From Ptychodera flava (taxonomy: Eukaryota; Hemichordata; Enteropneusta; Ptychoderidae), in NCBI RefSeq assembly GCF_041260155.1, contig NC_091933.1, forward strand, positions 25,596,674-25,660,673: DNA of 64,000 nucleotides, given 5' to 3'. The number at the start of each line of letters is the position of its first letter. Within the stretch, counting starts at the first letter, position 1. This document shows, in pieces, positions 377 through 42,489 of the stretch. The notes under the pieces were generated by a model that saw only the letters and a list, made by a program, of their open reading frames with translations, searched no databases and was not told the DNA's origin. The position numbers and the translations under genes were made by a program.

Positions 377-404
377 AATCGTTCTTGTTTTTGCTTGTCT
401 AGTA

Positions 405-12900: not shown

Positions 12901-13993
12901 TGAATATCAAAGATGCTAGTGTTCATTTTTCGTGAACAAGGGCGGAACCCTTTTCTTGGCAACAATGAATGGGTAGAAGAATTGTGGCATTATGTTTTTA
13001 CCACTCTTTAGGTATGCCATGTATAAATTCTGTAATAGCCTTTACTATTTGTCAATGTTTCGAAACGTTGCTTATCAATACATCCAGAAATACGACACCA
13101 TTGATACTTGGTTTAGAGATAAATGGTTTGTGACTCTGAAACACCAATTATGTACTGCTGTACCTCACATGCACAAATCAGGAAATTTCAACGGATACAA
13201 AAGCCACGACGGCTTTTCCCGGTTGACATGTTACCAAAGTGCATGACGTGGTTTAAACAGTAGTCTACACCGTTAACCTGTAGGCGCAAATGGTACAATC
13301 TATGCTGCGACCGAACAATATCGTTGTGTGTAGACCTATAAGTGAGTAAAATGTACTGTAGCGGATGTTCCGATTACGTCATTTTGCAAATTAATGTGTA
13401 ATCATTGGGAACAGATTTTCGGATACTCAAGCTTTTATAATTCTGTTCTTTGTATAACCACTTGTTAGAGTTCATTTTCAGGCTCATGGGGTGGCTTAAG
13501 GTTTTCCGGCTTATGTTTGTGAAAATCGAACATTTAATTCTCGCCATGGAGTCAACTCAGGGATGGCGGCCATTTTGAATTTCAGGTGTCTAATTAAAAC
13601 ATTGAGTTATTTGTTTCCCTTGTTCCAAATTTCGCCCTGTGACCAAAATTTTTTAATGTGATTTTTAAAGGAAATTAAAAGTTTTAAGTATCCTTACAGG
13701 AAGTTTGAGCAAACATTTAGGTCTTTCAATTTCAAGGAGTGTATTAAGAATGTCACTATGATAGATGCGTTTTAGGGGTCCATCTTACTTGACAGCTTGG
13801 AAATCTACCTGCCTTCTAATATCTTTATATTTTCTTCTCAGTCGAAGGGCTGTGCTTCGGTATATCAGCTGGCAGAGTGGATGTGGAATTCCGTCTCAGG
13901 AGGTGCAACGGTTACACAGTAGACGGCAGGCCCTATACCGGGCGGCAGTCGGCCGTTCGAATTATCGTGGAGGAAATTCACCTAGCGGATTAA
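9982..13993 (+). CDS. CTHRC1-like secreted collagen-stalk protein, copy A
   Basis: Four exons: 9982-10095, 11799-12023, 12621-12825 and 13842-13993, all GT-AG, phases 0, 0, 1, giving 231 aa (human CTHRC1 has 243). Exon 1 encodes a hydrophobic signal peptide (residues 1-30) then EEKPKPSE. Exon 2 has a Cys cluster (RCTSCC, 41-46) and ten Gly-X-Y triplets (52-81) including [13 protein letters not shown]. Exons 3-4 encode the globular C-terminal domain with [41 protein letters not shown] and RIIVEE, all diagnostic of CTHRC1. Family role: secreted, glycosylated trimer that modulates Wnt/PCP signalling and matrix; the role here is inferred. Odd feature: the near-invariant TGWNS motif reads TGRQS (Trp to Arg at residue 216, codon 13943-13945). 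A 240-bp foldback element sits in intron 1. An AATAAA lies at about 14514. Confidence 0.85.
11418..11658. mobile_element. Foldback MITE in intron 1 of copy A
   Basis: Two arms of about 85 bases are inverted copies of each other. AACCGTTGG, GGGAACTAGA and GTTGCCAACAC in the left arm (11423-11480) are mirrored on the right as GTGTTGGCAAC, TCTAGTTCCC and CCAACGGTT (11600-11655). The corresponding site in copy B (about 18660-18790) lacks it, so the insertion followed the A/B duplication or was lost in B. No clear target duplication was seen. Confidence 0.7.
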
Positions 13994-14780
13994 GTAATTC
14001 CGTAGAAATACTGCAATTGCAGATCTCGATTATCGAGCGTAATCTCCCACACTCTGAAACGTAGTTAGAAATTTATGCTAGTTTTTAAACGAAGGTTTAA
14101 TCAACTTACGCTTGTTAACAGCCACACTTATTTGCAACAAAGTCATCACTTTGATCTGTGCATTTAATGTGCCAAAATTATACGATGACATAATAACCAG
14201 GCAGTTTTTCTCTTTCATGGAGTGAAACTGTTACTTTCGACATTTCACAATTTTGTTCTAACATTTAACAGTCGTCTATCTTCTCCCGAAAATTATACCA
14301 TAGATCCTACCAACGCACTGCATATCTTTGCAGTTGTAGTGTTGACCGTGACATTGGTGTTCGGCATGAACATTTGATACAATACAAAATCAGGCAGTAT
14401 TGAAATTGAAACAAGGCACTGCGACATACAAACAGAGCAAAATTATGGAAAATGAATGCATTACATGTTACAGCATATGAAGAGTCAAAATGTATTGTAC
14501 ACATTTCCGATCCAAATAAAAGTAAGCTGACTCTTGTGTTCCACAAGTTATTTATAGTCATGTTTCATTTTGTTTGTCAACCTTTGAACACGTAGGACTT
14601 GGTAACTTATGGTATTTTACCGGACCAAGTGTTCATTTCAAAAAGTTAAGTATCATAAAAATACACCGAGTCGGGCTGTAACTTAGTGGAATAACAATGC
14701 ATAGATCTTGAAAACTCTGAGTCCAGGTTTTCCGTATTTCACTACTTTTTTGAGCTCCAACAATTACTAGGGGCAAAATC
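13994..14780. other. 3' flank of copy A
   Basis: Presumed 3' UTR and spacer. An AATAAA occurs at about 14514. The last part (14650-14750) is shared with the flank of copy B at 24600-24690. No further coding sequence was seen. Confidence 0.4.
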
Positions 14781-17468: not shown

Positions 17469-19654
17469 TGGCGTCGCTTGTGAAGAAAAGCCAAAGCCAT
17501 CGGAGGTAAGTACATATTTTAGTATTTTGAATAACTGTTCCCTAACTTGTCCTTCAAATTCCCCGTTCAAAGATCAAATTTATAGCTCTACCGGCATCCT
17601 AAACTGTAGCAAATTTCTAGTTTGAAGACACTTCGTAAGGTATTGTACAGACGACAACTAATATTGTGGCTACTACAGTTTTACGCCAAGCTCAATATGT
17701 TGTGTCGGTATGGATTTTTATAGACCTATAAAAGTCCATATCGATAACGGAATTTGCAGAGTAGATTATAAATTACTTCAGCTTCTGAATTGTGATTTAT
17801 GAAATCGTCATGTCGCTGTCACAATTGCTGAATGGAAATCTGTTGTTTTTCTCACAGATTCTTCTGTTAAGCCATTGACAACTGTTTACCTATGTGTGTG
17901 AACTAAAATATGATGTTATAATTCAACATTTGACTTTAAGGGCTTGCGAGTAAAGATTTCAAGGTTAAGGAAATCTCTCAGGGCATGAGAAACTAAATAT
18001 TTAAGGGATTTAGCCATTGCATGTCAAGAACAGTGACAACAATGACAGTTATAAAGTGCAATTTGACATGTTTCGATCAAAGTAGCTATACAGCGCATAT
18101 TTTTGGTATGTTGAGAGTTTTGAAAATGCTGGCCAAGTTTTATCCCCTTCGTTTACCGATGTGAAATCGTACACTTTCCTAATCTGGATAAACAAAAAGG
18201 CTGCCGTAAAGAGACTGCTGATGACTTGTGGATAAAGTAAAGGTTTGTGAGCAGAAAAAAATGTCAAATACGCACTGCGACCAGCGCTCTTTCACAATAA
18301 TGTTGTCATGCAGAAGCAAATGGGAAGGCGTTGAATGTCAGGTTTGCGTTCACACTATTAAGCTTTAGTTGAAATCCTGACACACATTCTTATCCAATTT
18401 AAAATGCAATGAAAGTTCACACAGTTTGACTGGCCGTTAGCGACTATTTCCATCTAATGCCAAGTTCCTCTCAGGGCCAAAGGTTCCGTTTGAAATGGAA
18501 AATATTTGACCGACCTTACTTGAACACACACAGCAGTTGATGCTTTGATTCATCAATTATGATTAACACACGAGAAAGATGACATGGGCTTAATTTTGAC
18601 CGTCATAATATTATGTACATGGTCTAAATGACTTATATCTCTATCGCAACACTTACATAAACAAAATGACTCCATACATCAAACACTAACAGTACCACTG
18701 AAAATGGTAGAAGCATTGCATGAAGTATTTGCCTGTTTTTAGAACGGGGCTATACTAACATACTTTGACTGACACGATTGTCGAAAGTAAGAATTTGCAT
18801 TGTTCAGGAAAGTGAGACTGCGATTACCCCCTGTATTTGGCCAGCAATCTCTCCGCCTGACCTTCATCTGTGTTTTTATAAGGGTTTACTCGCGAATATT
18901 TTGTTTGCAGCCTCCGAGGTGTGGGCCGGCACCGGCTGGAATTCCCGGCATTCCCGGTACTCACGGCAGCCCAGGACGAGACGGACGTGATGGGACCAAA
19001 GGTGAAAAGGGTGATACTGGACCCCCTGGGACTGTAGAGAACACTAATGGTCCTGTGTTTCATGTTATGAAGCATTGTGCATGGCGTAATTTGAACGACG
19101 CACGTACCAGTGGCGTCATCAAGGTATGTCAATAGTTTATCTCTACATATCAAACTTACTGGCAAAGAACGGATAATGCTTGTGCGCACAAGCACGGTCG
19201 ACATTATCTTTCAACAATTCAAATCGGACTAAGAAGTGATCTCTTGGTCGTGGTAAATAAATGTCAGAAAAAACATGAAAATTTCAACAGATATCCTTAC
19301 TTGAATTCCAGTTGACCAATTCAGCAATTGGGATCATATGGAACTTAGAAATCTGATTGTTGTTCTTGTTTATGTTGTTATTTGCTGATAAAATTGAAGA
19401 AAACTAATTTGTTGATGCCGTTGTTTCAAGAATACCTTCGTAAACGAGAATAATACAATAGTGACATGGCACTTATTATGCACAGAACCGAACGTTACGC
19501 TCTTTCTTGAATGTCCAAAAGAGTTCAAACAGAAACCTCCTTCCCGCTTACTCATCGGCCTTTTATGGCCAAAAATCAAGACCTGTTTACAACCGATTGA
19601 TTGGAAATTTGTATGTCGAGAATCAACATGGAATTTAATGAACCACACACAGAC

Positions 19655-19924
19655 ACATACATACATACATACGTACGTATGTAACGTACATATGTACGTA
19701 TGTACGTACGTATGCATACATACATACGTATACATACATACATACATACATACATACATACATACATACATACATACATACATACATACATACATACATA
19801 CATACATACATACATACATACATACATACATACATACATACATACATACATACATACATACATACATACATACATACATACATACATACATACATACATA
19901 CATACATACATACATACATACATG

Positions 19925-19955
<31 letters not shown>

Positions 19956-20247
19956 CATACATACATACATACATACATACATACATACATACATACATAC
20001 ATACATACATACATACATACATACATACATCCATCCATCCATCCATCCATCCATCCATCCATCCATCCATCCATCCATCCATCCATCCATCCATCCATCC
20101 ATCCATCCATCCATACATACATACATACATACATACATACATACATACATACATACATACATACATACATACATACATACATACATACATACATACATAC
20201 ATACATACATACATACATACATACATACATACATACATACATACATA
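19655..20247. repeat. Compound (ACAT)n/(CCAT)n microsatellite, intron 2 of copy B
   Basis: Irregular ACAT/ACGT sequence (19655-19730) is followed by a pure ACAT run (to about 19920), one GTTACAT interruption, more ACAT, a CCAT block (about 20030-20113) and ACAT again to 20247. Both strands stay open for hundreds of bases (His-Thr-Tyr-Ile and Met-Tyr-Val-Cys repeats); these frames are not genes. Confidence 0.95.
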
Positions 20248-20864
20248 GCACATAAACCCAATCAAAGCAACGAATACATCGCGAGTAAAGGATTTCGGAA
20301 CAATTATGTCCGCTAACAGAACTAACTAACCAGGACAGAAAATTCGAGAGTAATTTCCTTATTGGATTCAAATCCCAATAAAGCACTTAATGTCAAGTTC
20401 GAGAACTTTCGGAAATGAAACCATAAAAATAGGATTTTAGGCTTTCTTTTGAGTTGCCAAATATATATATAAACATTTTGACTGTCACTCTCCTCGAAAT
20501 AATATCATCCTTGAGAATATGTACTTTCTCTCAGTCGGCATGATGGGATAATGTATGTCGTTGACGACCGTTTCGCCTCCGATTCACCAATCTAGCGTCC
20601 TTAAAAATGTTAGTATCTCTCTTAGATGGCAATGGACACCCACGAGACCTGTACATCCTCATTTTCCTTATAGTGACTTCTCGGTCGCCGTGCTTATGAT
20701 TCCTACAAATTGTCCACGACTTTATTAACGTTATCGTTGCAAAGTAATTCCGGAGTCTCACGCGAATAACGAAAATAATCAGCTCAGAAGTTATAGTAAC
20801 TAAAAGTCGAATTACCAGAGCGCTATAAAAGGGACAAAATCGCATTTTTACCTTTTTGTAATAT
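20248..20864. other. Intron 2 insertion of unknown origin (copy B)
   Basis: Sequence between the microsatellite and the MITE with no counterpart in intron 2 of copy A. A 104-codon minus-strand frame (20531-20845) has no recognisable domain and is judged fortuitous. Confidence 0.35.
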
Positions 20865-21566
20865 CACAGAGTAACATAAACAGAGTGGCAACACTTGCAT
20901 GCCCTTTGTTCCATGGTCGTCTCGGTAGACTATTGGCTTTTCATATTAAAATGAGCTTCAAAGGTGTTAAACTTTTTGGAGGCTTTGTTTGTGGTTGATA
21001 ATTACACGAGATTATGCGAAACATACGACGAGATGGCATCGTACTGCCAGTCGCGTAGCAACCATAGTTACTTTGTGAGCTCTCAGGCCAGAAACACTGC
21101 TTCACGCCAATCAAAACATAACACGCCAGCAGTTTCATAAACATGTCCTTTCTTGACGCACGTGTAAAAGAGGGTATGACTGACCGTAAACCATTGAGTA
21201 AAACCAGACAGTATCGATAAAAGACTTTCAAATTTGGTTCAAACACACTCATTATATATTCATAAAAATATGAGAGGAATTTTTAAAACGGTAAAACCCA
21301 CTTTCCTGAAGCTCAAAACACTCCCGTTTTTGCCAGCACATCAATTCCGATCAGCACCACACGACAACAACAACACAAACTTTGTCGAACATACTTTCGC
21401 TTAACAATTGGTGAAAATCCGAAAATTACCGAAGGGTGCATGGTCGGCACTCTTCGGAAAAGAGAGCCAAGAGCTTCGTGATGCGAGGCAAACATGGATT
21501 GCTTACGTAACCGCTTCACGCTTTAAACAATAGCTGTTGCCACTCTGTCCATGATGTTACTCTGTG
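20865..21566 (+). mobile_element. MITE copy 1, CACAGA termini, 7-bp target duplication
   Basis: A 702-bp element with terminal inverted repeats: CACAGAGTAACAT... on the left and ...ATGTTACTCTGTG on the right, about 28 bases in all, including ACAGAGTGGCAAC/GTTGCCACTCTGT. It is flanked by the exact direct repeat GTAATAT (20858-20864 and 21567-21573). Two relatives lie at 41158-41857 and 44445-45139. No transposase motifs were seen, so it is non-autonomous. The superfamily is not settled: 7-bp duplications are atypical for hAT (8 bp), and P-like or Dada-like origins are possible. Confidence 0.9.
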
Positions 21567-22695
21567 GTAATATCAAGAAAACCGGGAATAGCTGCATAAA
21601 GGCACTCAGTGTACAAAATGACGACGATAAATAACTGCAAAAGAGTTAAAAATTACACCTTTCCTGATTGTTAACAGATGATTTCGTTTGTGACTTCAAG
21701 ACACTGTCAAATGGATTAACCTATTCCAACTTGTTTTCCTGCGACATTGCCACAATATCAGGGAAAGCTGCTACCCCTATCTGTATGAAAGATGCCGCTA
21801 ATAAGGATTTCAAAAACTTGCATAAGGTGCAACTTTTATGTAAAAATGTAATATCAGCCGTGCATGGTGAAAATGGGGCATTGAACCTGATTGTTTTGGT
21901 AGAGACTGTAAAATGATCACTGAATCTTTCATCTTGTCTGACTTGAGGCAGAGCTGACGTTGTACACATTTGACCAGTATTTTAAAATATACTACTTTTA
22001 GTATCAAAAACATTCATGGAAAATGTTCAAGAAAGAGCGACTTTTACACTTTTACATTAATTAAACTTTCTTAAATACATGTAGCCAAAATCAGCCATTA
22101 GAATCTCAAATTTGAATTCACCCGGGAGGGGTGTTGTCCAGGTTAAATATATAAATGATTATGATTGAAATTCAAAGCAAACACAGCCACCTAAGTGCTT
22201 TCTTGGAAACACCGGTTCGTCCACGTAAGCCTTGCATTTTTAATATTTGTTGAGTATCACAGTAAATATTTAAGAAAAACTCTGAAAAGCCTGTGTATTA
22301 TAGTATATATCACCAATGAACGTCATTTTGGAGCAGATTTCATATCAATTGATCTTTAAGTGTGAATGACTCGGCAAAAACTGGCAAGACTATAAGGAAT
22401 ATGACAGGTAAAAAAGTAATTTTTATTTTCGGTCATGACTCTTTCAGTTTTCAAAACGTTTCAGAAAGATAAAAACATACCAAATATAAATGATTCCTTT
22501 TTAATCACATCACAAGTTCCCAAGCTTGTGTGTCCATAAATGTTAGTTATGTTAATGTTATAAGTTAGGGTTTACATCTTCTTTATGCAGGGATGTGAAT
22601 TCACCAAACGATCCGACACAACAGCGCTTCGAGTCCTGTGGAATGGGGATATGCGTTTGATGGCGGATACTAATGGCGTAGGATCTTGCTCTCGT

Positions 22696-22698
22696 TGA
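22696..22698 (+). other. Nonsense codon in copy B exon 3
   Basis: The exon 3 frame, counted from 22591, places TGA exactly at the Trp of the conserved RWYFTFNG motif (TGG in copies A, C and D). It is a single G-to-A transition. Confidence 0.85.
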
Positions 22699-24532
22699 TA
22701 CTTTACTTTCAACGGCGAGGAGTGCGACAATCCACTACCCATAGACGCTGTCATGTACTTTACTTCCACAAATAATCGTCACGCCAAAACTTCCAGTAAG
22801 TGTGAAAGTAGTGAACGTGATGTCATAACATACAAACCATTGGTCCTAGACCGCCAAATAATCCCTGCAAAAACCCTAGACAAGATAATTATAACAGCCA
22901 GGGCATTTATTACATGTGAACACGGGCTAATGCGTTTTCCGCTCAAAAATGACAATGGAAACTAGAAAGTTGTATTTTACATTTTCTAAGATAAACTCTG
23001 TAAAAGGTATGTTACAATCGTCAGTCCCTCTAGGTAATGCTTCACATGTTGAATTTTGTAGGAATTCAAAGCAAATCTCCATTTATTGATACTTGCTTTA
23101 GAGATAAATGGTAGGTCGGTTTGAAGCTAAAGTAATGAACTTTTCAAAAAATCCACATTTTTTCCTGTTGACATGATAGCAAAGTGTATGGATTTGTTGA
23201 AGAAATGGTCTGCATATTGTTGGTTTCTAAGAACAGTCGATTCAACAGATGTCGTGAACAAACAAAATCGTTTCTCATAATTGAGTAATAATTAAACGCC
23301 GCAGTTATTCTCTTGAAGATGTTTTGTCTATATTCTGCCACATATTTCTGCAAAGTCTCTATAGTAAGATAACACGAACCTCGAAAATGAAAGACTTAAA
23401 GTTTTGCTCGAAATTTCTTCAATGACACGTTAAACCATACTCTTAAACAATCAAGAATAAAAATCAGAGATTACCGTGCAAACATTGGTACTAGAGAAAC
23501 AATTACCTGACATTTACCGAATTTTGAAATTCAAAATGATCGCCATCTCTGTGTTAACTCTATAGAGAAACATCAATTTTCGAATTTTCAAAAACTATGA
23601 CGGTGAAAATTTTCCTTACTCCAAAAGCTTTAAAGGAACAAAGTCGGTCATTTTTCATGATCATTTATTCATTCTCGCGATGGTTTCATGTATCGTGTCT
23701 TAAACCGGGGTCGAATATATGCATGGTCACCCATTCATTCAGTATCTTTCAACATATCAAACAATATAAGTAGTATCTCGAATTAAACAAAGTTCATTAA
23801 AAATGGCCAACTTTGTCCCTTTTAAATTAGCCTCATAAGTGGTAGATGAGAGAAGAATTGTAAAAATTTAAGTCTGTCCCCGCTCTGTTCCCTAGGTGCA
23901 TTACACCTAAATGTTGCCATGAGTATTTCAAGGCAGCAATGTTTATGTGATTGATGATAAGTATATAGTAGTCCATCTAACTTATTGAACGGGATCTTTC
24001 TACCTGCCTCATTATGTCTTTACATTTTCCTTTCCAGTTGAAGGTCTCTGTTACGGTTTATCAGCAGGCAGAGTGAATGTGGAATTCCGTATCGCAGAAG
24101 GATGCCCAAATACCTCATTATCGAGCGGCAAGCCCTACACCGGATGGAACTCGGTTTCTCGAATTATCGTGGAGGAAATTCACCTCGCAGATTAAGTAAC
24201 ACTGTACTCTAAGATTTCGATCGCAAAGCTTGACCTCACACATTGAGTGACTAAGTTCAAAAAAACGCCCAAGTTTCAACGCTAATTTTTAATGACGTTT
24301 CGCTTGAGAATGACCGTTTCTATCCCATTAAAGTAGCTCTACTGTGATCCACAGAATATTCATAGTCGTGTGTCATTTCATTTGTAAGCCTACGTATGAC
24401 TTAGTAACTTACGACGTTTTAGCGTGTGCATTTTAACAGATTAATTTAATGGGGCTCTGATGTAAATTACAATATTTTTATAACTCAGACTACCCTCTGA
24501 AAATAAAACATGAGTACACAAATAATAACACA

Positions 24533-25169: not shown

Positions 25170-25418
25170 GGACCATTAGATCTTTGTGGGTGGGGTGGTC
25201 ACCATCAGAATGTGAATATTTTTTTTACAATCGTAAATATTTGATTTTTTTTCAAGCGAGTCGTGATGTGCTTTTCTAAGTAAACTCAGGTTTATATTTT
25301 TTGCGTTCTGATTTTTTATTTTTTTATTTTGCAAACTAGTCTTAAGATTTTTTCCCTAAACTTTTTGCTTTGAATTTTTTTCTGTTTTTGACCACCCCCT
25401 TCCAAGATCTAATGGTCC
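25170..25418. mobile_element. 249-bp MITE-like foldback element
   Basis: Ends read GGACCATTAGATCTT on the left and AAGATCTAATGGTCC on the right (15/15 inverted match). A second matching G/C-rich segment lies just inside (GGGTGGGGTGGTCA and TGACCACCCCCTT). The interior is very T-rich. No target duplication is evident. Confidence 0.75.
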
Positions 25419-26393
25419 TTCCCAAGAGGAAAGGTAAAAGGGAGATGTGAGCCAGTTTACCGCTTATTTCTTTATAGAGGTATCCAAACTGATTACAGTT
25501 AAAATCAGTTTCGACAATAAAACTGGTATGCAGTTTTGTCTCACAAACTGAAGATAGCGATTTTTTTAAGCACGTTCCTCTTCGCGATCATGTTCAATTC
25601 AAAGTAGCTCAAAGCTTATCTGGGCCTCTGATTTACCAGAAACGCTTGTCTCTGTGATAATTAGTCCTTGCATTTAACGATTGCCATGTCCTGGCCATCG
25701 AATGCAAGCATTTGTGCAGCACTAAGGGTTTAACTATAGGTGAACCCAAGGACATCCTTCTTTGTGTGATGAACAATGTTTTACCTTTCACTGTCACAGA
25801 CTTCAGAACTACTTTCAAAATACTAACGTCGTCGTATGGATATTGCCTCCAAAACAAAATAAATCAAAACCTTTGAAATGAAACACCAGAGTAATACATG
25901 TTGCTGAAAGCAACTCCTTGACTATAGGCTGATAGAAAAGAAAGTTAAATTATCACTTTAAAGTGAATGACAAAGTACATGGTTCATTATGGACGAGAGG
26001 TTTGCATTTAGCAGAAGACGAACCATCCTCAGCTGATTTTCTGACTCTCAACTTTATTGTAATACATAGCTTTTTGTGTATTAAATGGAAAAGTTGTTGA
26101 GGAAAAGACTTATTTGTGTTGGTGCGTGCAACTCCACTGAGGTGTTTAGTCTGCAGTGGCAAGTTTTTTCGAAGTCAAAAATTAGCCGCGTTAAGGGTAC
26201 ATGTTTATTGGTTACGATACAGTATAAATTGTCACACTTGTTTGCTTCAAATTTGATATCAGATGAATTGTATATAAGTCGCAAAATATCAGGGAAAAAA
26301 AACAATTAAAGCTATTATTGACGTCCTCCTTATCAATTCGAAACGTGGGTTGTGTATATGTCAGCCACTGCGTGTGAATTCGGAAAATCCAGT
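25419..26393. other. Unassigned spacer between copies B and C
   Basis: No supported gene. Several 60-75 codon frames occur on both strands without recognisable content. Confidence 0.35.
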
Positions 26394-26439
26394 GTTTATA
26401 CACAGTCCCTCTATCTGGATAGAGGGACTGTGGTTTATA
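26394..26439. mobile_element. 32-bp perfect palindrome with 7-bp flanking duplication
   Basis: The stem CACAGTCCCTCTATC (26401-26415) and its exact reverse complement GATAGAGGGACTGTG (26418-26432) are separated by two bases (TG). Identical 7-mers GTTTATA lie directly outside (26394-26400 and 26433-26439). CACAG/CTGTG ends plus 7-bp duplications match the signature of the roughly 700-bp elements elsewhere in the window. This suggests a minimal transposon derivative of only two fused termini. Confidence 0.7.
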
Positions 26440-27120
26440 TGAATGATAAAAGGAAAAAACTACAGTTTTGGGGTGAATGATTGTCTACGTTTGTTTAACA
26501 TCTTTTTGTTAGCGGTATCTTGAATCTTTCATACTTTTATGAAACTATTTCACAAAGAGCTCCTTCAGTTGACGTAGGAAGAGGTGGAACCCGAGAACAA
26601 GTTCTTGAATTCCATCTCTGTACACAATTGAATCACATATAGATCACTAGAGTAGTCCAGACAAAGGCCAGGAGATTAAGTGTAAGCTGAGCACGACTCG
26701 TTTGGCCCAATCCAAATAGTGTATCTTGCTTAGGAGAAAATGCCCAAATGTTATTCTTAAAACCGTAAATTTTGATAAGAGATGGTGTTCCCTGTTTAGG
26801 AGCAACATCGGAATGTTATTCTTGAAGTCGTAGATATGGATAAGGGATGTGCAAACACTTCATTGAGCAGATTACTTGACAATTAAGTATAAATATAATG
26901 CCTTGGAAATATCTTCCACCGGTAAACACTCTTGGCTAAGTTTACTCTTTGACTCAGCACATTCCATAAGTAAGCAGCGCTAGGAGAGACCGAGCGGCTT
27001 TGAAATTGCCGATTACGACTGTGTGGAACACAACCTCAACGCCCATCGCGAGCATCGCTAGCCATAGCCTCACTGTTACTTCAACATCGGAGATTTTGTA
27101 GGCTGTAAAAGTGTATCATC

Positions 27121-30100
27121 ATGGAGGCAGCAAACAACCGCAAGTTTGGTTTCGTCTTATCTGTAATGTTGATGCTAATGCCTGCCGGAATACATGCTCA
27201 GGGTACATCTGGATCGAACCAAGTAAGTTAACACGCAATACAATGGTACACGCAGTTCGATAAAATTGTTGTGGTCGAAACCTCATGATTCAACTCAACT
27301 CGGGTTTACATAATAGTTCATATCTTGGACTTAATACAGTTGCTCAGATGTATACCCAGGATAATATGTCAATAATTACACGATTTCCACTTCAAGAGGC
27401 TAGGAAAAACTCAAACGTAATCTTCAAAAGCTTATGTTTTCACAGCTTAATATATGGTATTGCAAGCCAGATATAGGCACGAGAGACATTTCTGCGTGGG
27501 CAATTTGTAACGAGTATGTACTATAGGGCTGATTGGTTTTGTATTTTTTAACCGCGCCAAGTTGTCGCCGGGCTCATCTGTTGGTTAGAGAAAAACGATG
27601 CGAAGCGTAAGTTTAAATGATTCATATTTGATGTGTTAACTAGCATTTACACTGCAGAATTCTGGCTGTACTGCTTGCTGTGGTCCTGCACCTGCTGGAA
27701 TTCCCGGCATTCCCGGCACCCATGGAAGCCCGGGAAGAGACGGACATGATGGGATCAAAGGCGAAAAAGGTGATTCCGGACCCCAGGAGATGGGCTTCTC
27801 TATCGTGATATGAAACAGTGTGCATGGGATAATATAAACTACTCTGGCCCCAATGGCATTATTAAGGTAGGGTAACAGACTTCCGTTATTATATTTCTAT
27901 CTTATTAGTCATCGACAGGTAACGCAGGACAGTGTTATCGTACCAGTACAATTGTAAATCTATTTGAAAAGTTGCAAGCAAACTTAAAACTCAGTGGTTG
28001 GTACTTACAGCCCTGCCAAGGAATACATTGATTTTGTTCTACGTCGCCACACAAAAGTTATCATTCTGTAAGTTTGTACATTGTAAAATGTCATTTATGG
28101 GGAAAAATATATGGAGAAAGACGATTCTCCAAGTATAGCAAAATCTGTGTTTTTTCTCTCGCGAAGCTTTGCTACAGCAATTTTCTAGGTACTTCGATTT
28201 TAAGAGCATTTGCAAGAGACTTCAAGGGGCATGGCATCATAGAAGTAGTCTAACTCGCTACCATGTCCACTGTCAAATGTACAATTTTATCATAGTCATT
28301 GGTTAAAATTTCATATCAGCACTTATCTCATATCAGCAAATGGTATCGGAAATTAGCGGTAGAGATAAGGGCGCCTGTTAATGAAGGAAAAACTGACAGC
28401 GTTGAGGAACACCTCTGGGTGAATTAAGGGGGAAAGGGGTATGAGGAATGCAACACTCTAGGGGGGGGGGTGGTTACAAAACACTGTGGTCGCAGAGAGG
28501 GACTTGAAATATTCGATATCGAATACCATTTTTTCACGGCACTTTCACGGGACAAAAGAGAACCATGTGTCTCTAATGTCGTGAAAAGTTCACAGCTGTT
28601 TTTTTATCGCAATGAACGTTGCCACACTGTTAATTTTATCAGTGTGTAATCGCCAAGAAGCAAAATTCAAAACAACGTAGGTTTAAAACAAATTACAAAA
28701 ACAAATTAACATATCTTTTAAAATGTTGAATGATATTGTTTAAAAACATCGACATCGCAAACCTTATCAATCAAATCATTAAAAGTCGTGAAGTATCCAA
28801 TTAGGTCATTTTTGTAACATCAACACTACAGTAAGGGATGTTTAGTAGAGGTCTTGTTTAGCAGAGTATCTAGGTACGCATAGGCAATGGTTTACATGAA
28901 AAAGAGATCCTGTTTTCTTCTTTGTTTTCAAAAAAAAACTCATCAGGCCAGGAAGAAAAAATAAATTGTTCATCGGAATCGCCGCTTCTACTTTGGCATA
29001 TTTGGAATTTTTTTTTTTTTTTGATCGCGGCAAATTCTTACTTCCGCATTACAAATATTTTTAGTACTGCCGCTGGTGGCGCCCTACACTGTGTAGGGTT
29101 TTCGCGGGCATGGGATTTTGAATGAGATTTCATACATGTTCGGACTTTAAGTTGACCGCCAACACGTTGTTGTGACGTCTGAATTTGGCGAATCACGACG
29201 CAAAGTGGGTCGATTTGGCCAGAAATTTGCTCGTTTTGTAAAGGTTAGTACATGTCACATCATGAGTATTAATTTGATCGCCAACATTCGACGTGATGGC
29301 CAACAGTTAGTTCCAGAGACGCTATATTCAGTGTTTGTCCTGATATTACGTTCGGCGATTTGTTCAACAAGATCGTGACAGCAGATGGACGGTGCATCCG
29401 ATTGAATGAAAATTGCATCGAAAGTATAAAAATGTACGGCAATGACAAAACATATGGTTGCGTCGATGTTAAAGTACGATCTGAATGATGACTATATAAC
29501 TTCACTCCGATCACAGTACAGTGTTTAAAATGTGTATATATAGACAGTGGTAAAGAGGCCAAAACATGGGGCCAAAGTAAAAGGAAAAAACTCAGATGCT
29601 AGGTCCCACCAGGACAATATTAAAGGACAATACTGAATTGTTGAATTTCAGTGATTTGCTGTACATTTCAGTTTTATTCTGAGAGAATGTTGAAATGCTC
29701 AGAATATGTTGTGCAAACACTAACTTGTGAATGTAATGGCCTATGTTATTGTTGGGAAATATAATATTGAATTCAGTTACCAGTATCAGTGTTTCTTGTC
29801 TGAGATGTTTCTGGTAAAAAGGGAAACAATTATCTTGCCTTGTCTGCATCTGTGCAAAAATGCCAGAGAACCGAGTTTACCTTCGGCCTAAAAAAAAATA
29901 AAAAAAAAAATTTCGCTCGCCGCTCCTGGGACTTGGTCCAAAAAATCCGATGATCAAGATTTTTTTTTTCTCTGGCCTTGACACATACAAATATGTCGAA
30001 GAATTGAAAGATTTAAAGGACCATCATTATGTCTCTCTATTTCTTTAATAGGGAGTAGAACAAAATGTAAAGTTGATTCAAAGAACAAAAAATATGGAAG

Positions 30101-32205
30101 TCTTACAGTTTAACGTTTTTCTTGCATTGGCGAATGATACCACATCACCAGGTATGAAATCAGTGCACACTAACACACAGCTAAAGTTCTGTAGTGAGTG
30201 AATCGGAATATAATAAGCTTACTTTGCCGAAAATGTCTTGCGTTTTTTTAATTTGACAATAACTTTGGTAAAAGTAAATATATAGCGCCAAATTACAGCA
30301 TTACACAAGTAAAAGATTCAGATTAGAACATTTTAGGCCAGTTTTCAGTGCTTCATAATCCATACAACGATATAGAGCAAAAACATATTTTGTCGGCGGG
30401 GCGTATGTCAGGAAGGGGACTTCAAAATCTTTAAGAGCATGGCGGAGAAACTTGAATACCTGGGGATGCGGGGGGGGGGGAGGTAGGTGTCTTCAAATAA
30501 TCTTATATAACTACCATCCCCATAGATGTTTGTGAATTTGAACGCTGACTAACATATCGTTAACTGTCGTTCTATATCCCTTCAATGAAGGAGTGTGAAT
30601 TCGCCAAACGATCCGACACGACCGCGCTCCGAGTCCTGTGGAATGGTAATCTACGTGTAAGGTCACGTTCAGTTCCAGAATCTTGCTTTCGTTGGTACTT
30701 CACATTCAACGGAGAAGAATGCAACAATCCAGTGCCAATAGACAGTGCCGTGTCCTCTACGAGCGACGAAAACCGTCACCGCGTGACATCAAGTAAGTGT
30801 GAATGGAATACAGATGGTACATCATTGCGTTTCTTACCAGTCAAATAGAATCAGATACAGGGAATGCGCTCATTATTTTTTTTGCCCTGAAGCTTTGATT
30901 TCGTCTTCGATTGGTCTTCGCCTCCCTTCTCGGAATCTACGCCGCGAGAAATCTTGCATAATAGTCAATCAGAATGCCTTGTATAAACAGGGAGAACTTC
31001 CTTCACTGAACATGACCCTGTCACGCTTCTCGAAAAACTCATCCTGAGATCATCTTCTTCGGGGGTGCGGGGGGGGGGGGGACTAATCGCTACATTTTGT
31101 AAAGCTATCAGCACCTCAGATTATGGCAGTCATGGCCAAGGATGGACGTGTAATATCGCAGACACGAAATATATTTCAGGTGTTCTCACGATAAAGTAGC
31201 AAGAGTCCCTACTCGCTATTACTTAGCTTGATATTCGGACATTTCGAGCCCAGAGATACCTTACTCTCATATTCCTCTATTTTTAAACTTCCAAAGATAA
31301 GTTTTATGCAGATCTTTCTTTACTTACTTAGATTTAAACAGTACAATTATGCATGGCCAGTCTTATCTCAGCCAAAGCAGGCTAGCAATGTAGGGCAAGG
31401 CACGAGTGTATAGACTGGAAACGCAAAAAGTTGATAAGTCAGTTGATAAGTTGATAAGATATTATTTGTATTCAGACTATGGTGAGATGACGTCACAGAG
31501 CGAAAGCTTTCCGAGAATCGCCATTATTTCCCTGAATAGTTTTGTAAACTGTAACAGGATCTTTTAAATGGATGGACTTCTTTGGGAATCAATTTACCCT
31601 TCTGTGTGCTTTCTGTAAAGTAATAGCTTTTAGCACTTTTCTAATTTCAGAAACCCCCTTAGACTGTGTTTGTACACCCCGGTCATAACTCAACTCTTCC
31701 TTAGTATTGATCAAAAATATATGAAATGGTCTCGAAACGTTTTCCCTGATAAGGTCATTATGACTAATAAGTACGCGACCTCTCTCGTCAGTCAGTCAGG
31801 CTACTGGCTGACTCAACGCCTTCAATAAAACCCTATCATAACAATTAAAGAATCCTGGGAGTTATTTTCTTGTGAATGTAGGCAAATGCTTTCAGCGTAT
31901 GAAGAAATGAAACAGAACAATTGACTTCTAGATGAATTCTCTTTGCATGTTCAATACTGTCATAAAAATCCTTCTTTTCATCGATTTTGATAAGTGGGAG
32001 TGATACGTGGAACGCTTCTCCTTACGCTCTGTGTCATCCTATTTGCATTTCAGTAGAAGGTCTGTGTTATGGTATACCACCCGGCAGAGTTAATGTGGAA
32101 TTCCGTCTCTCAGGATGTCCAGACGTATCTCCAGGCGGTGAAGCCTATACTGGATGGAACTCGGCCTCTCGCATCATTGTCGAGGAAATTCTCACATCGT
32201 ACTAG
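27121..32205 (+). pseudogene. CTHRC1-like copy C, one-base frameshift in the collagen exon
   Basis: Four exons: 27121-27222, 27658-27866, 30591-30792 and 32054-32205. The start ATG 27121 opens a signal peptide ending near HAQG. Exon 2 begins NSGCTACCG and carries the Gly-X-Y run, but is 209 rather than 210 bases. A base appears lost in the C run at 27781-27784 (GGACCCCAGG where copy D has GGACCGCCTGG), after which the frame meets TGA at 27811-27813. Beyond the lesion the codons again spell KQCAW and GIIK in the shifted frame. Exons 3 and 4 are clean: [42 protein letters not shown]. The exon 3 acceptor is AAG rather than CAG. This is either a young pseudogene or a sequencing error in a homopolymer of a working gene. 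An AATAAA lies at about 32449. Confidence 0.75.
27223..30590. other. Introns 1 and 2 of copy C: content
   Basis: Apart from exon 2 (27658-27866) this is intronic. It has poly-G (28462-28471), T and A homopolymers (28989-29003, 29888-29908), and a G-rich patch (30465-30482). An open stretch at 29160-29245 is followed by GTTAGTA and looks faintly exon-like, but I cannot support a gene. Confidence 0.4.
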
Positions 32206-34735
32206 TTCACTGAGCCGAACATTACTTACCAAACCTTTCAAAAATCGAGTGGCTGGATTCGAAAACAACCTTTATAGTGGATGAAGCCCGATTAGTGTAA
32301 TTAGGTGTTGTCGCCATGTTATATTTGTCGAATGCTCATTAACAGTAAAATCTTATTGCAGTTAGTTCTGTATTTTCGTCATTTTAATTGCATGTTAATG
32401 TTTTGATTTTAAATCCACCGGCCCCTTGTATGAGCAAATTATAAGGAAAATAAATGAAGTCAGGAGTCCACTTTCAGAAACGGTAAACTTTGGATTTAAG
32501 GAAAAAATACAAAGATATTTTAGAATCATGTGAATTCCAACTCATTTAGAAGAGACGCTCTTTTGAAAACATAAAACAAAAATGGGCATAGTTGCAATGA
32601 TATCTAGCCTTCTTGGCCTACTATGGACAAAACCCACCATTCTAAAATGGGATTCTTCACACGAAAAGCTGACTGTGCTACAATGTGTTATATATTGCGT
32701 TTGCCGCAATCGACCCAGTGAAAATGCATGACCACCGTATCTCATTTATATAACGGAAATGTGAACCACAGATGCACTGCTTATAGCTGGAAGTGTTTGC
32801 ACGAAAATTAAAGTGTCCAAGTTAACTGATGAAACCCTTGAGTTCATTTATAATAGGTCTCTTTCGAAATTGCTTAGTTTGTGTCACATGCTGTAGTTAA
32901 TGCTGGCAGCCGTGCACCCGCTTTCTAAAAACAGGCCACAGGTGGCGTTGACAGTGCAGCTGTAAATTTGCAGTGTCTATTCTCCTGAAAAACGTTTGCC
33001 TAACAGGAAACTCTGACAAAATGCATCATGCCCGCCACCAGGAAATTGCTTAGAGAGTCGTTTCTTTTCTAAAATATCAGATGACTTGTCCCTGACACAA
33101 GATAACCCAAGTACTCATCGCCTCAAGCAATTGCTGCCTCGATTTTCCTTGTTTTCGAGTGAGAAATTCTTCGTTGTAAGAGGGCGCTCTTCTACAGTAG
33201 ACATGGTTCAGTAAAAACTAGTATTTGTAATTCCAAGGGCCACTCTTTATCCTTACACAAACGCATCTTCTCAAGGAATACCCACCTCTCATGGTTGCTC
33301 TGTTAGTGCTAATTTTGAATATTCCTCCTTCAACGTCTTTATAAAAATTCCCCGTCACAGTGTACTTTGATTTATTTGTGGAAACTTTGGATGTATACGC
33401 TCCAGAATTTTTTTTGTAATTTAAGAGGTCTTAAAAGTGCGTATATGGCAATGGCAACAACAGCCGTATGCGAGGGGGACATTTTCAATATTGGTGCTTA
33501 CTCGTCGACTTAACTTTCTCTGAAAGGATACTCTTAAATATAATATTTTATAACATCAAGAACTAAATTAACTGGGCGCCAATATTCTAAATGCTGCCAA
33601 CCTAATAGCGTCACATATTGTTCCAAGCGTTACCTCAATTAATAACATGCCAAAATACCAAAATTCGGAACATCCTTCGATATCTCAAACCAACAGGGTC
33701 AATGTCTCACATTGTCGCCATTACCCTCTTTGCCTGTCATAGCTGTGTTATTGCCAAGTTGTTGAGACTGTCTGATGATCTCCCTGATTGAAACATTCCC
33801 TAGCGGCATATCACCATACCTCATACGTCAGCTTGTGTAGTGCACATGGGGAAGGGGGAGACAGAGATTTGGCGTTCGCAAGAGGTTAAAATGTTTCCGC
33901 TTTCATAGTTGCGTATTCGCCGCTATATTTAAGCTTAAACATTACACTTTGATGCCTTATAGATTGTTTATCTCCGCGGCCTGTTTCACATATTAGTATG
34001 TCAACTTGTGTTGTGTTTTAGCAGTGTTTCCGGGCAAGTTCAGGGGCTTTTAAGGCTCATCTAATTTGTAGATTTTTAATTATTTACAGAAACTTGAGGA
34101 GTCTGAAACTAGAGTTACGTTCTATCTGATAGGCTGTTTGGGAATATTCAAGTAGCACGATCATTTTGAGCCAACCAATCGGCCGAAAGCTCCCGAGACG
34201 CTGCATAGAAACCAAATGTTGACACCGCTCACTAATAGTGTAACGTCCTCCCAGTTCACTCACCCTCCAGACAAATTAAAGAAAATTATCAATCATATGT
34301 CGCATTTTGAATTTTAGCCGATTTTCTTTTTATTTTCATAGGTAGAGTAGCTGCACCTTGCGTCTGTAACTATAGATGTATTAAAAGTAATTTTATCAGT
34401 ATATAGATGTGTTAATGTCAGTCTGTAATTTTCAATGCACACAATTTATCATGACACTGCATGTAACTGAAGCTGACACATCAATATGTTGATTGCAGCA
34501 CAGCCTTAAACTTTATTACGAGATGGCAAACGTAACATTCAACGTCTCGGGTCTTAGTCCACTGTGTACATTCGCTACCAAGCTGTATACTTTTTCTAAA
34601 CTTACATAACTACAAAATTGTCATTTTTATACAATGGTCATCACATGGTAATTTTCTCGCCAGTCTTTGATTGATTCTCAACATTAAACAAGATCACACC
34701 ATGGAATATCCTGTAGTCGATTGTTCTCATCTAAC
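32206..34735. other. Spacer between copies C and D, left part
   Basis: Starts with the 3' UTR of copy C (AATAAA at about 32449). From there to 34735 I see no coding sequence, RNA gene or clear repeat. Confidence 0.4.
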
Positions 34736-36983: not shown

Positions 36984-39900
36984 ATGGAGAAAACCTGTTA
37001 CTGCGACTTTGGTTTTATCTTAACGGTAATTTTAATTCTGATGCCCGCTGGAACATATTCCCAGGATACGTCTCCGCCCAATCAGGTAAGATAATATATT
37101 GACAAACGCGAGTTTAGTAAACATGCTTGAACATCGACTCCTGAGGTATTCCACTTTAAGTGGTGTGTAATGAAAGCTTGGTAGTATAATGGATGGCTCA
37201 TCTGCTGGCAATTTAAATTCAAGTTGCTCAAAACCTAGCTGTCGCAATGCACAAAAAATTACATTGTTCTATGCTCATATTTGTCATTTCAAGTTTACAA
37301 GATACTCAAACGGAATGTGCACAAGCTCATATATTCGATGTGAATTTAAGAAATTAAAATTAGTATTACTTGCAATGTAGACATAGAGGGAAAAGAATTT
37401 CAGAGTAAGCAAGAAAGTTTACACGGCGCCAAGTTGTCTTTAATAGTTCTGACCAGTCGGCCAAACAAAACACGATATAGATCATGGTTTAAATGATTTA
37501 AATCAGAAGTACTCACAGCATTGCTTGGATAATCGATCAAAGGCCCGGGATCCAAGTTTGAGGCCGAAGGCCGGACCTTGGTAGTAGTAAAAAGAATGGA
37601 AATTTTGACACAACAAAGTCAAAAACCAACAAAAATAAAACATCAACCCTAAGAAAATAACATTGGCCGGTCGAAAATACCTTCAAAAGTTAAAATCTGT
37701 ACTCCGGTAACTACGTTTGACTGATACATGCCAAACCTATGCGAAAATTCACTGTCAGGCAATTCTCCGCATTCACGTTGCCAATTCACCATAGGGAATC
37801 AGAGGATTAATCATTCAAATACAAAGGATTATGGAAGTGAAAGTACACTTCCCAACGATGGACTAGCAACGTGAATGCGAAGAATTTTCGCTCAGATCTG
37901 GTATATATAAGTCAAATGTATTACCAGAGTAAATATTTTAAATTTTCAAGGTATTTTCGAACTGCCGATGTTGATTTTTTGACGATGGATGGTTTATTTT
38001 GTTGGTTTTGGACTTCTGGCTGATTTGTTGCATCAAATCTTCCATTCTTGACACTACTGGCTGATGTTTAGCGTTCGGCCTCAAACGTCGATCCCGGGCA
38101 ACTATCCAAGCAACGCTCCAAGCACGCGTGATTTATATTTAAGTTAACTGGCATCGCGCTTAACTTTGTGTTATTATAACAGAATTCTGGCTGTACTGCT
38201 TGCTGTGGCACTGCACCTGCTGGAATTCCCGGCATTCCCGGCACTCATGGCAGCCCAGGACGAGACGGCCGTGATGGCGTCAAGGGTGAAAAGGGCGACA
38301 CTGGACCGCCTGGAGAAGCCGTGGGAACTACCGGGCAATTTTATCATGACACAAAGCAGTGTGCATGGACTAATATAAACGACGACCGTACCAGTGGTAT
38401 CATCAAGGTATGTAAAAAACCGGTTTCAGCTTACTTTTTAACCCATTTGCCAACGGAGGACAGTAATTGAGAGACCCACTGACGTTCTCAGTAATTAATC
38501 TATTGGCAAGTCATCAACTCCCAGCCCAACAACTAAAAGCCAAAAGAAGAGTGAACATGCATGAAGCTCGCATGTAGAGGGCCGTAACAGTAAAGCTGCT
38601 CAATCAATAAAATGTTGTTTTGCCAGTTTCATAGCAACAAGAAATGCAATCACATTACGGGAGATACACTTGGTATCATGGTGTCTTGTACCTATCGTAC
38701 AATATAAGCTTATACAAAATGAAATTCAGAAACAACAACTATATTTCGAAACAGCGGTAGATACGAAACGTAATTAAGGCAGTTCACGCCTCGAACTTAA
38801 AACTTCTGCTCAAAGTTACTGCAAGGAAACTTTCAACTTCTTCAGTTTTTACGGCCGGGGGGGGGGGGCGGAAAAATCCAGGGCAGGGTCATCGTAATTT
38901 TGGAATCCGCGAAGGGAGGTCATCGCTTTTTCACTGGTAGGAAAGGGGGTCACCACATTTTCAAAACCATAATATCTAAAATAAAGTTCACTTTATGCCA
39001 TGGCCATGATCGACCCTCTTTACCGGCAGGCCACCTTGACCCTCTTAACCGGAGGGCTGCCTTTTGCGAACCACTCCAATAAAGTTTACTTTATACAATG
39101 TCCATGGAAATAAGTTGTCTATGGAAATGAAGTTAAAAATTGCCTTACAGTCGTCCTAATTAACAGACGTTTGCATGGATGTAGCTGAGAAATTTGTGCA
39201 CTGGCATCTCTGCTACATGAATAAAGTGCGCTGCGTACCGGAGTTCAAATCCAAACCGTGTGGGTAAATTTAACATATGGGTTTGGGTTATTTTTCAGTC
39301 GGGGGGGGGGGGGGGGAGTCATCAATTTTTTTTGTCTGACAAGGGGGGGTCATCTTTTTTCACGAGAAATGCAGGGGGTCTATATTTTTTTGAACATCGG
39401 CGACAAGATTTTGCCGCCCCCCCCCAGGCCGTAAAAACTGAACGGTCCCTAAATACGAAGAAGTGGCAGACCAAAGGAAATATTGTAAAAGTTTGAGAGC
39501 CCAAATATTTGTCCAAAAGGCATGTACCTTCAACGCTTTATAAACATGTGCAATGTGTGAGGCAATGCTTAAACAGGGCTGTCTATTCTGTCACGCAGGA
39601 GTGCGAATTCAATAAACGATCCGATATCACCGCACTCCGAGTTTTGTGGAATGGTAATCTCCGTGTAATGTCAACATCCGACGCCTGCTTTCGTTGGTAC
39701 TTCACTTTTAACGGCGAGCAGTGCAGCAACCCAGTACCCATAGACAGTGCAATTTACTCTGACAGCAATAAGAACCGTCATCGAGTAACCTCAAGTAAGT
39801 GGGCAAAGGGGAAAGTACATGAAGCGTGTCGTCACGGCAGTTTTTAGTTACTGTAGACTATCGTCTATAGCAGCTATTGGGATGGGTATCCGTCCGGAGC

Positions 39901-42489
39901 CCGTCGTCAGCATGTATGTATGTATATATGCATGCATGCATGTATGTATGTATGCATGCATGCATGCATACATACATACATACATACATACATACATGCA
40001 TACATACATACATACATACATGTATGCATGCATGCATGCATACATAAATGCATGCATGCATGCATGCATGCATGCATGTATGCATGCATGTATGTATGTA
40101 TGTATGTATGTATGTATGTATGTATGTATGTATGTATGTATGTATGTATGTATGTATGTATGTATGTATGTATGTATGTATGTATGTATGTATGTATGTA
40201 TGTATGTATGTATGTATGTATGTATGTATGTATGTATGTATGTATGTATGTATGTATGTATGTCCGTTTTTGAAGATGTCCGTCCACTCAAGTATCATGA
40301 GAACCGCAGTACTTACAGACTTGATATCTTCTTCTTCATAACCACTGGTCAGACAGCTTTGATAAGGATGATCTCACTCAGATTTGTTCAAAAAGTGATG
40401 AAATATGCAAGTTTGTATTTTTAAGGCAATTGTTGCCATTGTTGGTCAAAAAATCTTTAAAAATCTTCTCCTTCAAAACTGTAGATCAAACAGCTTTGAT
40501 ATTTAGGATATAGGTCCCTAGGGATGACCTTTTTGAGATTTGTTTAAATTGTGCAAATATATGCAAATTTGTATTTTTAAAACATTTTTGGTCAATTTTT
40601 TTCACCAAAACCGCTTGTCTGACAGCTTTAATATTTGGTATATAGCTTCATAGGGATGATCAAAATGTGACATATTCAAATTATGATGAAATCTACAATT
40701 TTGTATTTTTGGGGCAATTTTTTGCGATTTTTGGTCAAAAATTTTGTTTCTCAAAATGTACTCGTCTGATAGCTTTGATATTAGTACAGGTTCCTACAGT
40801 TGGAATAAATTTGATATACTGATATTATGATGAAATCTACAATTATGTATTTTTGGGGCAATTTTTTCCATTTTTTGGTCAAGAAATTTCTCTCAAAACT
40901 GCTCGTCTGATAAGTTTGATATTGTCTATACAGGTTCCTAGGGGTTATCTTATTTATGAAGCATTGAAATAATGATGACATCTGCAATTTTGTATTTTGG
41001 GGACACTTTTTGCCATTTTTATAGGCACAGATGGCAGCTTTCTATGCTGGCTATTGATGAATGTCTGTGTATATGGATATGACCCATACTGAAACAGTTC
41101 TTCTGCCATAAGAATACACTGTATCGCCAAAGGACCTCTGCACTCACTATATCTGGTCACAGACAAATAGAAAACACAGACTTGCAACGCGGCATAGCTT
41201 TTGTTCCATGGTCGTCTCGGTAGACTATGGCCTTTTCATATTAAAATGAGCTTCACAGGTGTTAGATTTTTTTTAGACCTTTGTTCGTGGTTGGTAATTG
41301 CACGAGATTATGCAAAAAGTACGACGAGATGGCATCGTGCTGCCAGTCGCGTAGCAACCATACTTACTTTGTGAGCTCTCAGGGCAGAAAAACTGCTTCA
41401 CGCCAATCAAAACATAACACGCCCGCAGTTTCATAAACACGCCCTTCAATGACCAACTTTTAATAGACGATATGACTGACCGTAAACCATTGAGTAAAAC
41501 CAGAGAGTATCGATAGAAGATTTTCAAATTTGGTTGAAACACACTCATTATATATTCATAAAAATGTGAGAGGAATTTTTAAAATGGTAAAACTCACTTT
41601 CCCGAAGCTAAAAACTTTCCCGTTTTCGCCGGCACGCCGATTCCGCCCAGCACCACATGACAACAACAACACAAACTTTGCCGAACATACTTTCGCTTAA
41701 AAATTGGCGAAAATCCGGAAACTACCGAAGGGTGCATGGTCGGCACTCTTCGGAAAAGCGAGGCGAGAGCTACCTAAGGCGAGGCGAACATGGATGGGTT
41801 ATAACCGCTTCACGCCTTGAAAAACACCCGTTGCAAGTCTGTGTCTATTTGTCTGTGATCTGGTATTATGCTATATGTGTCCTCTGTACCATCTAAAGTA
41901 GCTTCAGGGACATTTGCCCTATGTTTGAAAACTCTCATCAAGAGAAGCAGATAAACACGATGTGTTGTGTATGGATGAATTCTGTAAAAGTGGGCACGTG
42001 TTTTGTCGTTCTTCAAGTTTCAAAATTTGACATGTTCAGCTTATTCAGAAAACGTCTGACGTTGCCTCACTTGTTTGAGGCACAGGTAGTGTTGGCGAAT
42101 TTCAAGTAAAAAAAGATGAAAAGATTATATTTCTGATCAGCAAATTTTATGAGTTAGAGGCTAACGTTGGAGTGTGTGACTCATGCCAATGTGCTAATTA
42201 ATCCATGACAATTAATCGTTGCAAAAATGTATAGAAGATAATTTTTCAAATTATCAAATAAGCTCCATCTCTCTAATGGATCGGAGTTTCACTCTCCTCT
42301 CCTAACAATAACGTAATGCAATTTTTTCCCTCAGTCGAAGGGCTGTGTTTCGGCATACCATCTGGCAGAGTAAATGTGGAATTCCGTCTCTCAGGATGTC
42401 CCGATTCGTCATCAAACGGCCAAGCCTACACCGGGTGGAATTCGGCCTCTCGCATTATACTAGAGGAAATTCACACATCGTACCAATAA
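36984..42489 (+). CDS. CTHRC1-like secreted collagen-stalk protein, copy D
   Basis: Four exons: 36984-37085, 38183-38407, 39599-39794 and 42335-42489, all GT-AG, phases 0, 0, 1, giving 225 aa with no lesion. Residues 1-27 are a signal peptide (hydrophobic core [13 protein letters not shown]) ending near YSQ. 35-43 is the Cys cluster NSGCTACCG. 48-77 holds ten Gly-X-Y triplets including [19 protein letters not shown]. From KQCAW to the stop is the globular domain with [60 protein letters not shown] and [13 protein letters not shown]. By family it is secreted and probably trimeric, acting in Wnt/planar-polarity or matrix contexts; that role is inferred. The stop TAA lies within an AATAAA (42485-42490). 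Its introns host three kinds of inserted repeat. Confidence 0.88.
37519..38115. mobile_element. Long foldback MITE in intron 1 of copy D
   Basis: Left end TTGCTTGGAT (37520-37529) and right end ATCCAAGCAA (38104-38113) are inverted. The arms continue inward for over 100 bases: CCCGGGATC, GTTTGAGGCCGAA and CCAACAAAA on the left are mirrored as TTTTGTTGG, TTCGGCCTCAAAC and GATCCCGGG on the right. The middle has further self-complementary segments (GCGAAAATTC near 37740, GAATTTTCGC near 37881). No target duplication was found. Confidence 0.75.
38843..39440. mobile_element. G-rich MITE in intron 2 of copy D
   Basis: Terminal repeat CAGTTTTTACGGCC (38843-38856) and its exact reverse complement GGCCGTAAAAACTG (39427-39440), each followed inward by a run of G (left) or preceded by a run of C (right). 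The interior has more GGGGG-rich segments, including 39301-39317. Open frames through it are glycine- and phenylalanine-rich artefacts. Confidence 0.75.
39910..40263. repeat. Compound (ATGT)n/(ATGC)n microsatellite, intron 3 of copy D
   Basis: Starts with mixed ATGC/ATGT and ACAT units and becomes a pure TGTA run from about 40087 to 40263. It is opposite in polarity to the ACAT array in copy B. Confidence 0.95.
40340..41030. repeat. Satellite with period of about 135-146 bp, five units
   Basis: A block with GTCTGACAGCTTTGATAT, a GGTTCCTAGGGATGA-like middle and TTTGTATTTTTGGGGCAATTTTT recurs at about 40345, 40484, 40616, 40762 and 40905. Units are diverged but their order is constant. It lies in intron 3 of copy D, between the microsatellite and a MITE. 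Confidence 0.8.
41158..41857 (+). mobile_element. MITE copy 2 (diverged termini), 7-bp target duplication
   Basis: A 700-bp element related to 20865-21566 along its interior and in the same orientation (TTCCATGGTCGTCTCGGTAG near the left end). The termini differ: CACAGACAAATAGA... left and ...CTATTTGTCTGTG right, with an inner AGACTTGCAACG/CGTTGCAAGTCT pair. Exact flanking repeat ATCTGGT (41151-41157 and 41858-41864). No transposase seen. Confidence 0.9.

Follow-up and report, generated by a model that had tools for sequence, protein, structure and literature searches.

A 32-bp palindrome between 7-bp direct repeats in Ptychodera flava, probably the excision footprint of a DNA transposon

The Window and the Palindrome Site

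The stretch of DNA analyzed here, called the window, comprises 64,000 nucleotides of the Ptychodera flava contig NC_091933.1 (assembly GCF_041260155.1). It appears to contain four CTHRC1-like genes in tandem, which were grouped from repeat families (11796–14030, 18896–24206, 27655–32242 and 38180–42523); a CTHRC1_C (CTHRC1 C-terminal) domain was found in both of the two exons of the array that were scanned. A retrotransposon piece with endonuclease, reverse transcriptase and zf-RVT domains lies on the plus strand at 318–4304 and a second retrotransposon reverse transcriptase on the minus strand at 62661–63221. The window also harbors a piece assigned by Pfam to ABC-transporter TMD0 and two long tetranucleotide arrays of the CATA/CATG type (19926–20247 and 39912–40263), which are inverted relative to each other.

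At 26401–26432 there is a palindrome of 32 bp, whose arms are complementary at 15 of 15 positions around a centre of 2 bp and which is directly abutted on both sides by exact 7-bp direct repeats (Table 1). The sequence-only reading had described inverted 15-mers, a 2-bp spacer and flanking GTTTATA at this place, and direct reading of the letters bears out both the description and the coordinates. The whole 46-nt stretch from 26394 to 26439 is predicted to form a hairpin of high stability (energy as DNA −15 kcal/mol; z −8.07).

Table 1. Parts of the palindrome site and the three long elements used for comparison (positions in the window)
Feature	Position	Strand	Remarks
Target-site duplication, left copy GTTTATA	26394–26400	.	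Read directly; exact copy at 26433–26439
Palindrome left arm CACAGTCCCTCTATC	26401–26415	+	Read directly; putative outer ~15–17 nt of the left TIR
Palindrome centre TG	26416–26417	.	Read directly; putative joining point of two tails
Palindrome right arm GATAGAGGGACTGTG	26418–26432	-	Read directly; putative outer ~15–17 nt of the right TIR
Target-site duplication, right copy GTTTATA	26433–26439	.	Read directly
Comparison element, 702 bp, non-autonomous	20865–21566	+	CACAGAG ends, duplication GTAATAT
Comparison element, 700 bp	41158–41857	+	CACAGAC ends, duplication ATCTGGT
Comparison element, 695 bp	44445–45139	-	CACAGAG ends, duplication ATTACCT

Frequency of Such Sites

Simulating the window 20 times with a first-order Markov model gave perfect arms of up to 12 bp for loops of at most 6. 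When palindromes with perfect arms of at least 11 bp and loops of at most 20 were listed in the window itself, one per 12-bp bin of centres, 18 rows were obtained, and all arms longer than 15 bp lay in simple repeats of AATT or ATGC/ATGT. One other palindrome outside simple repeats has 15-bp arms (47513–47550, with an 8-bp loop), and a further one has perfect arms of 12 bp around a 2-bp centre (46394–46419). The former consists of the word CTCGTAATTACGAG, itself palindromic, present twice. Neither is among the window sites with flanking repeats of 5–10 bp. The palindrome taken alone is thus rare in the window without being unique, and the occurrence of 15-bp arms at 47513–47550 without such a duplication indicates that palindromes arise here by other routes too.

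The palindrome together with the abutting 7-bp repeat is unique in the window. A scan for inserts of 12–44 bp with flanking 7-bp repeats and a minimum arm length of 6 or 8 bp, from which low-complexity sites were dropped, gave 26394–26439 as the sole site, and the same combination in 40 simulated windows yielded four hits at arms of at least 6 and none at arms of at least 8. Likewise, 30 simulated windows contained no site with arms of at least 10 bp, flanking direct repeats of 5–10 bp and a length of 22–100 bp. (A filter against duplications made of few letters drops the palindrome itself; the remaining 25 rows all lie in the ATGC array.) The combination of palindrome and flanking duplications is not due to chance.

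Elements With CACAG Ends

Units of the form CA...TG, 24–4000 bp long, that are flanked by exact 7-bp duplications and whose ends agree at 10 or more of 15 positions were found by a scan at five places: the palindrome, three elements with CACAG ends (702, 700 and 695 bp) and a weak match of 2102 bp. A wider scan, which accepted any ends together with flanking repeats of 5–10 bp and from which low-complexity ends were removed, gave 14 rows in the window, shifted duplicates of the same elements included, as compared to 0.67 per simulated window. The palindrome and the three long elements recurred in it, all with 7-bp repeats.

Judged by their sequences, the three long elements are members of one non-autonomous family. 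In ungapped columns the copies at 20865 and 44445 are 98% identical in reverse orientation, and the copy at 41158 is 87% and 88% identical to the other two. Of the first 29 positions, 28 agree between the two ends of the element at 44445, which corresponds to a TIR of ~29 bp; the ends of the elements at 20865 and 41158 match over 13–14 positions, after which a gap is needed. All ends are bipartite, with an outer unit of 14–17 nt starting CACAGAG or CACAGAC and an inner unit starting xACAGAG or CACAGAC, located 15–18 nt from each end. Within each element the outer and the inner motif change together, as if the same transposase domain bound both. The outermost ends of the elements are more divergent than their interiors, as has also been reported for the CMITEs of corals (PMC2872659).

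Both CACAG ends and exact 7-bp duplications are common to the palindrome and the three elements. It had been stated from the sequence alone that the ends and the duplication length of the palindrome match those of the 700-bp MITEs, which holds for CACAG and for the 7 bp but not beyond: the palindrome arm differs from either kind of MITE end at 5 of the 11 terminal positions and has CACAG alone in common with them. Repbase assigns ends to the same superfamily when the duplication length is the same and at most one mismatch occurs in terminal positions 1–11 (PMC4455052), and with 5 of 11 positions differing from both kinds of end the palindrome lies outside this rule. The rule is not decisive here, however, since the two kinds of MITE end themselves differ at 3 of 11 positions (the first 11 bases of the element at 41158 compared with those of its relatives) despite 87–88% identity overall, which indicates that the sequence beyond CACAG can change. 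With only CACAG shared, the departed parent of the palindrome would belong to another family, unseen in the window.

Origin of the Palindrome

We propose that 26394–26439 is probably the excision footprint of a DNA transposon that was cut by chemistry of the P-superfamily type. A transposon with CACAG...CTGTG ends would have inserted with duplication of the 7 bp GTTTATA and would later have been excised by transposase through widely staggered cuts, which left on each flank the duplication and a single-stranded 3′ tail consisting of ~17 nt of terminal repeat. The host's end-joining would then have paired the tips of the two tails or cut them back, followed by fill-in synthesis. As the tails would be inverted copies of each other, their join would be a near-perfect palindrome. 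Annealing of 17-nt tails with TG and CA tips would yield the observed centre. Parent ends identical up to position 17 cannot give a central TG through an overlap of 2 nt at the tips, and therefore the ends would have differed at positions 16–17 or one tail would have been trimmed; a blunt join of trimmed tails (16 + 16 or 17 + 15 nt) may alternatively have led to the same product. What the sequence shows is the anatomy of the site, its excess over chance and the five terminal bases and duplication length shared with three local elements; the widely staggered cut, a transposase from the P superfamily and the succession of steps are our inference, and the arms are likewise only putatively remnants of terminal repeats.

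The model for this proposal is the Drosophila P element, whose transposase cuts such that 17 nt of each terminal repeat stay behind at the donor site as 3′ tails (PMC2895639). The junctions compiled in that paper were recovered experimentally in spn-A mutant flies; those of Tables 2 and 3 were counted by hand. In 5 of 66, 2 of 23 and 3 of 25 cases (Tables 1–3, 10 of 114 together) the junction had the form 15 + (TA) + 15 = 32 bp and the 8-bp duplications on either side were intact; the form 14 + (AT) + 14 = 30 bp occurred in 14 of 66, 5 of 23 and 7 of 25, and the remaining 78 of 114 had other lengths, inserts or deletions (PMC2895639). By our reading of Table 1, both duplications were retained in 63 of the 66 junctions, with inserts of 4–44 bp (PMC2895639).

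By comparison with these junctions, the insert in P. flava, 15 + TG + 15 = 32 bp, coincides with one recurrent published class. For a footprint of this type one expects two intact target duplications, between which no more than 17 nt of each terminal repeat is left in inverted orientation, the two remnants being joined through a short overlap, after trimming or with filler; at the palindrome site GTTTATA is exact on both sides, and 15–16 nt per side, presumably of TIR origin, surround the 2-bp centre. The site is thus like the footprints of D. melanogaster P in its intact duplications, its inverted putative TIR remnants and its 15 + (2) + 15 = 32 bp arrangement, and unlike them in that the P duplication is 8 bp, the sequence is another one and the P junctions stem from an experimental spn-A background (PMC2895639). 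Against the proposal stands that most of the published P junctions fall outside the 32-bp class (PMC2895639).

A longer transposon could also still be in place, of which an interrupted gap repair or a deletion left only ~16 bp per end. Such an internally deleted element, which we consider unlikely, accounts no less well for the duplications and the arms, and internal deletion with retention of the ends has been proposed for the MITEs derived from P (PMC1562414). It does not, however, predict that the sequence stops at 15–16 nt on both sides, which the footprint model does. Less probable again is a mobile minimal MITE of 32 bp, in which two outer terminal repeats stand back to back and are moved as a unit by a transposase; to our knowledge it would be smaller than any known eukaryotic DNA transposon. 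The perfect arms and perfect duplications would fit a recent insertion of a mobile 32-mer, and with MADE1 there is a precedent for a palindromic element that has an interior of 6 bp and forms a family at 80 bp (PMC1784062). MADE1 resembles the site in P. flava in being a near-perfect palindrome, built from two terminal repeats around an interior of just 6 bp (37 + 6 + 37 bp); unlike the 32-mer, it has 80 bp, is derived from the mariner-like Hsmar1 and is dispersed as a family (PMC1784062). The 32-mer, in contrast, is present in one copy in the window and lacks the second CACAG-like motif that the local elements have 15–18 nt from their ends, and two ends 32 bp apart would probably be hard to bring into synapsis for steric reasons. 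If the 32-mer should be mobile all the same, this would mean that a transpososome can capture two transposase sites of 15–16 bp with almost no spacer, and the minimum size accepted for DNA transposons would need revision. A known kind of scar is more likely than a new, minute mobile element.

The two explanations without any transposon are less likely. A functional hairpin, either an RNA structure or a protein-binding palindrome, would agree with the strong predicted fold of 26394–26439 and with the presence of the further 15-bp-arm palindrome at 47513–47550, but it gives no reason to expect exact 7-bp direct repeats right at its borders, and no Rfam family reached the gathering score in 20000–46000; we regard it as very improbable. 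Hardly to be expected is filler DNA, meaning that a break with a 7-nt stagger was repaired by snap-back (polymerase theta-like) synthesis, which would have produced a hairpin insert. Templated inserts do arise in end-joining (PMC2895639), but CACAG ends and a 7-bp length that recur in three local elements would be left unexplained.

The idea of a footprint from aberrant excision, which had been offered from the sequence alone beside those of a smallest mobile unit and of a hairpin-transposition product, comes out as the best supported of the three, except that such a scar is not aberrant but an ordinary outcome of end-joining after P-type excision (PMC2895639). The accompanying remark that no element of this form has been described is contradicted by the P junctions (PMC2895639) and by MADE1 (PMC1784062). 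Should 26394–26439 be a footprint, past activity of a long-stagger transposase that cuts in the P manner would be suggested for this animal, and the ~16 outermost nt of a family otherwise unseen in the window would be available as a handle for finding the parent. Footprints of this kind can be mistaken for tiny MITEs.

Searches for Empty Sites and Further Copies

An empty site was not found in the window: the joined flanks reached at best 67 elsewhere on both strands, as compared to 60–77 for six shuffled flanks on the plus strand. No further copy of the palindrome arm is present in the window, and BLAST of 25401–27600 against the window revealed no paralogue of the palindrome site. Besides itself and the inverse of the palindrome, the BLAST query matched 37000–37094 (95 bp, 71.6%, ~740 bp from the site) and a local repeat at 26716–26849.

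In IMG/VR, which is not meant to contain the host, no stretch had 12-mers of the arm 2–20 bp apart, and a 23-mer of the MITE interior was likewise absent from it. Prokaryote genomes, a collection also not meant to contain the host, gave no match to the 32-bp palindrome when its two central bases were left free. A single 15-mer arm matched 16 viral stretches, 10 of which have one sequence context in common; in none of the 16 was an inverted 11-mer of the arm found within 1.5 kb, and the matches were set aside as unrelated.

A full-text literature search with the 11-mer CACAGTCCCTC gave matches that were judged unrelated from titles and the beginnings of abstracts. At the same level of titles and abstract beginnings, which is no proof of absence, the literature on 7-bp duplications, MITEs, palindromic minimal elements and P excision named no mobile palindrome of 32 bp.

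Superfamily of the Source

By analogy, a source of the local elements in the P superfamily is plausible. All three have duplications within the 7–8 bp of this superfamily; exact 7 bp was a condition of the CA...TG scan, and the wider scan for 5–10 bp likewise gave 7 bp for all three. Galileo, a member of the P superfamily, has 7-bp and rarely 8-bp target duplications (PMC4168063). It thus resembles the palindrome site in its 7-bp duplications and differs in its long, internally repetitive terminal repeats and its target motif GTANTAC, the likeness being one of description (PMC4168063, PMC2775673). Among the four target duplications in the window only GTAATAT is near GTANTAC, and four are too few to show a P-like motif.

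The P elements of D. melanogaster and Anopheles have 8-bp duplications (PMC2895639, PMC1562414), and the terminal repeats of those from Anopheles are 27–31 bp long (PMC1562414). A length of ~27–31 bp is attained by the 44445 element with its 28 of 29 positions, the other two elements matching over 13–14 before the gap. The Anopheles P masters are like the local 695-bp element in their TIRs of 27–31 bp, and the existence of short non-autonomous relatives is a further likeness; the Anopheles elements and MITEs are unlike it in their 8-bp duplications; here too the likeness is one of description (PMC1562414). Nine pieces of the window scanned with Pfam contained no match to a P transposase or THAP domain, nor did the one reading frame scanned of a local element (112 aa) have a Pfam match.

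Transib and RAG have a CACAG-like heptamer and a 5-bp duplication, and were rejected on this length, 5 bp versus 7 bp here. The duplication of Dada is 6–7 bp. We know of no hAT scars that keep 15 nt of each end. As implied by an example command in PMC4455052, hAT families include some with 7-bp duplications. The scars of other superfamilies are unlike the one found here: the review PMC3878927 gives overhangs of 2–3 nt for Tc1/mariner, none for piggyBac, and flank hairpins with random footprints for hAT. A hAT source was set aside because hAT scars arise from flank hairpins (PMC3878927).

Other Candidate Units in the Window

Six to seven further candidates came out of the wider scan, their arms being 10 bp long and their repeats 5–7 bp. 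At 56948–57115 there is a unit of 168 bp with perfect ends of 10 bp (TCAATCTGAT) between exact 7-bp repeats TCTCACA, which is not CACAG-ended. A unit of 266 bp at 46623–46888 has well-matched inverted repeats in its first and last 40 bp (CACCAGCACAG...), the arms of which may be longer, and has ATCGAT on both sides.
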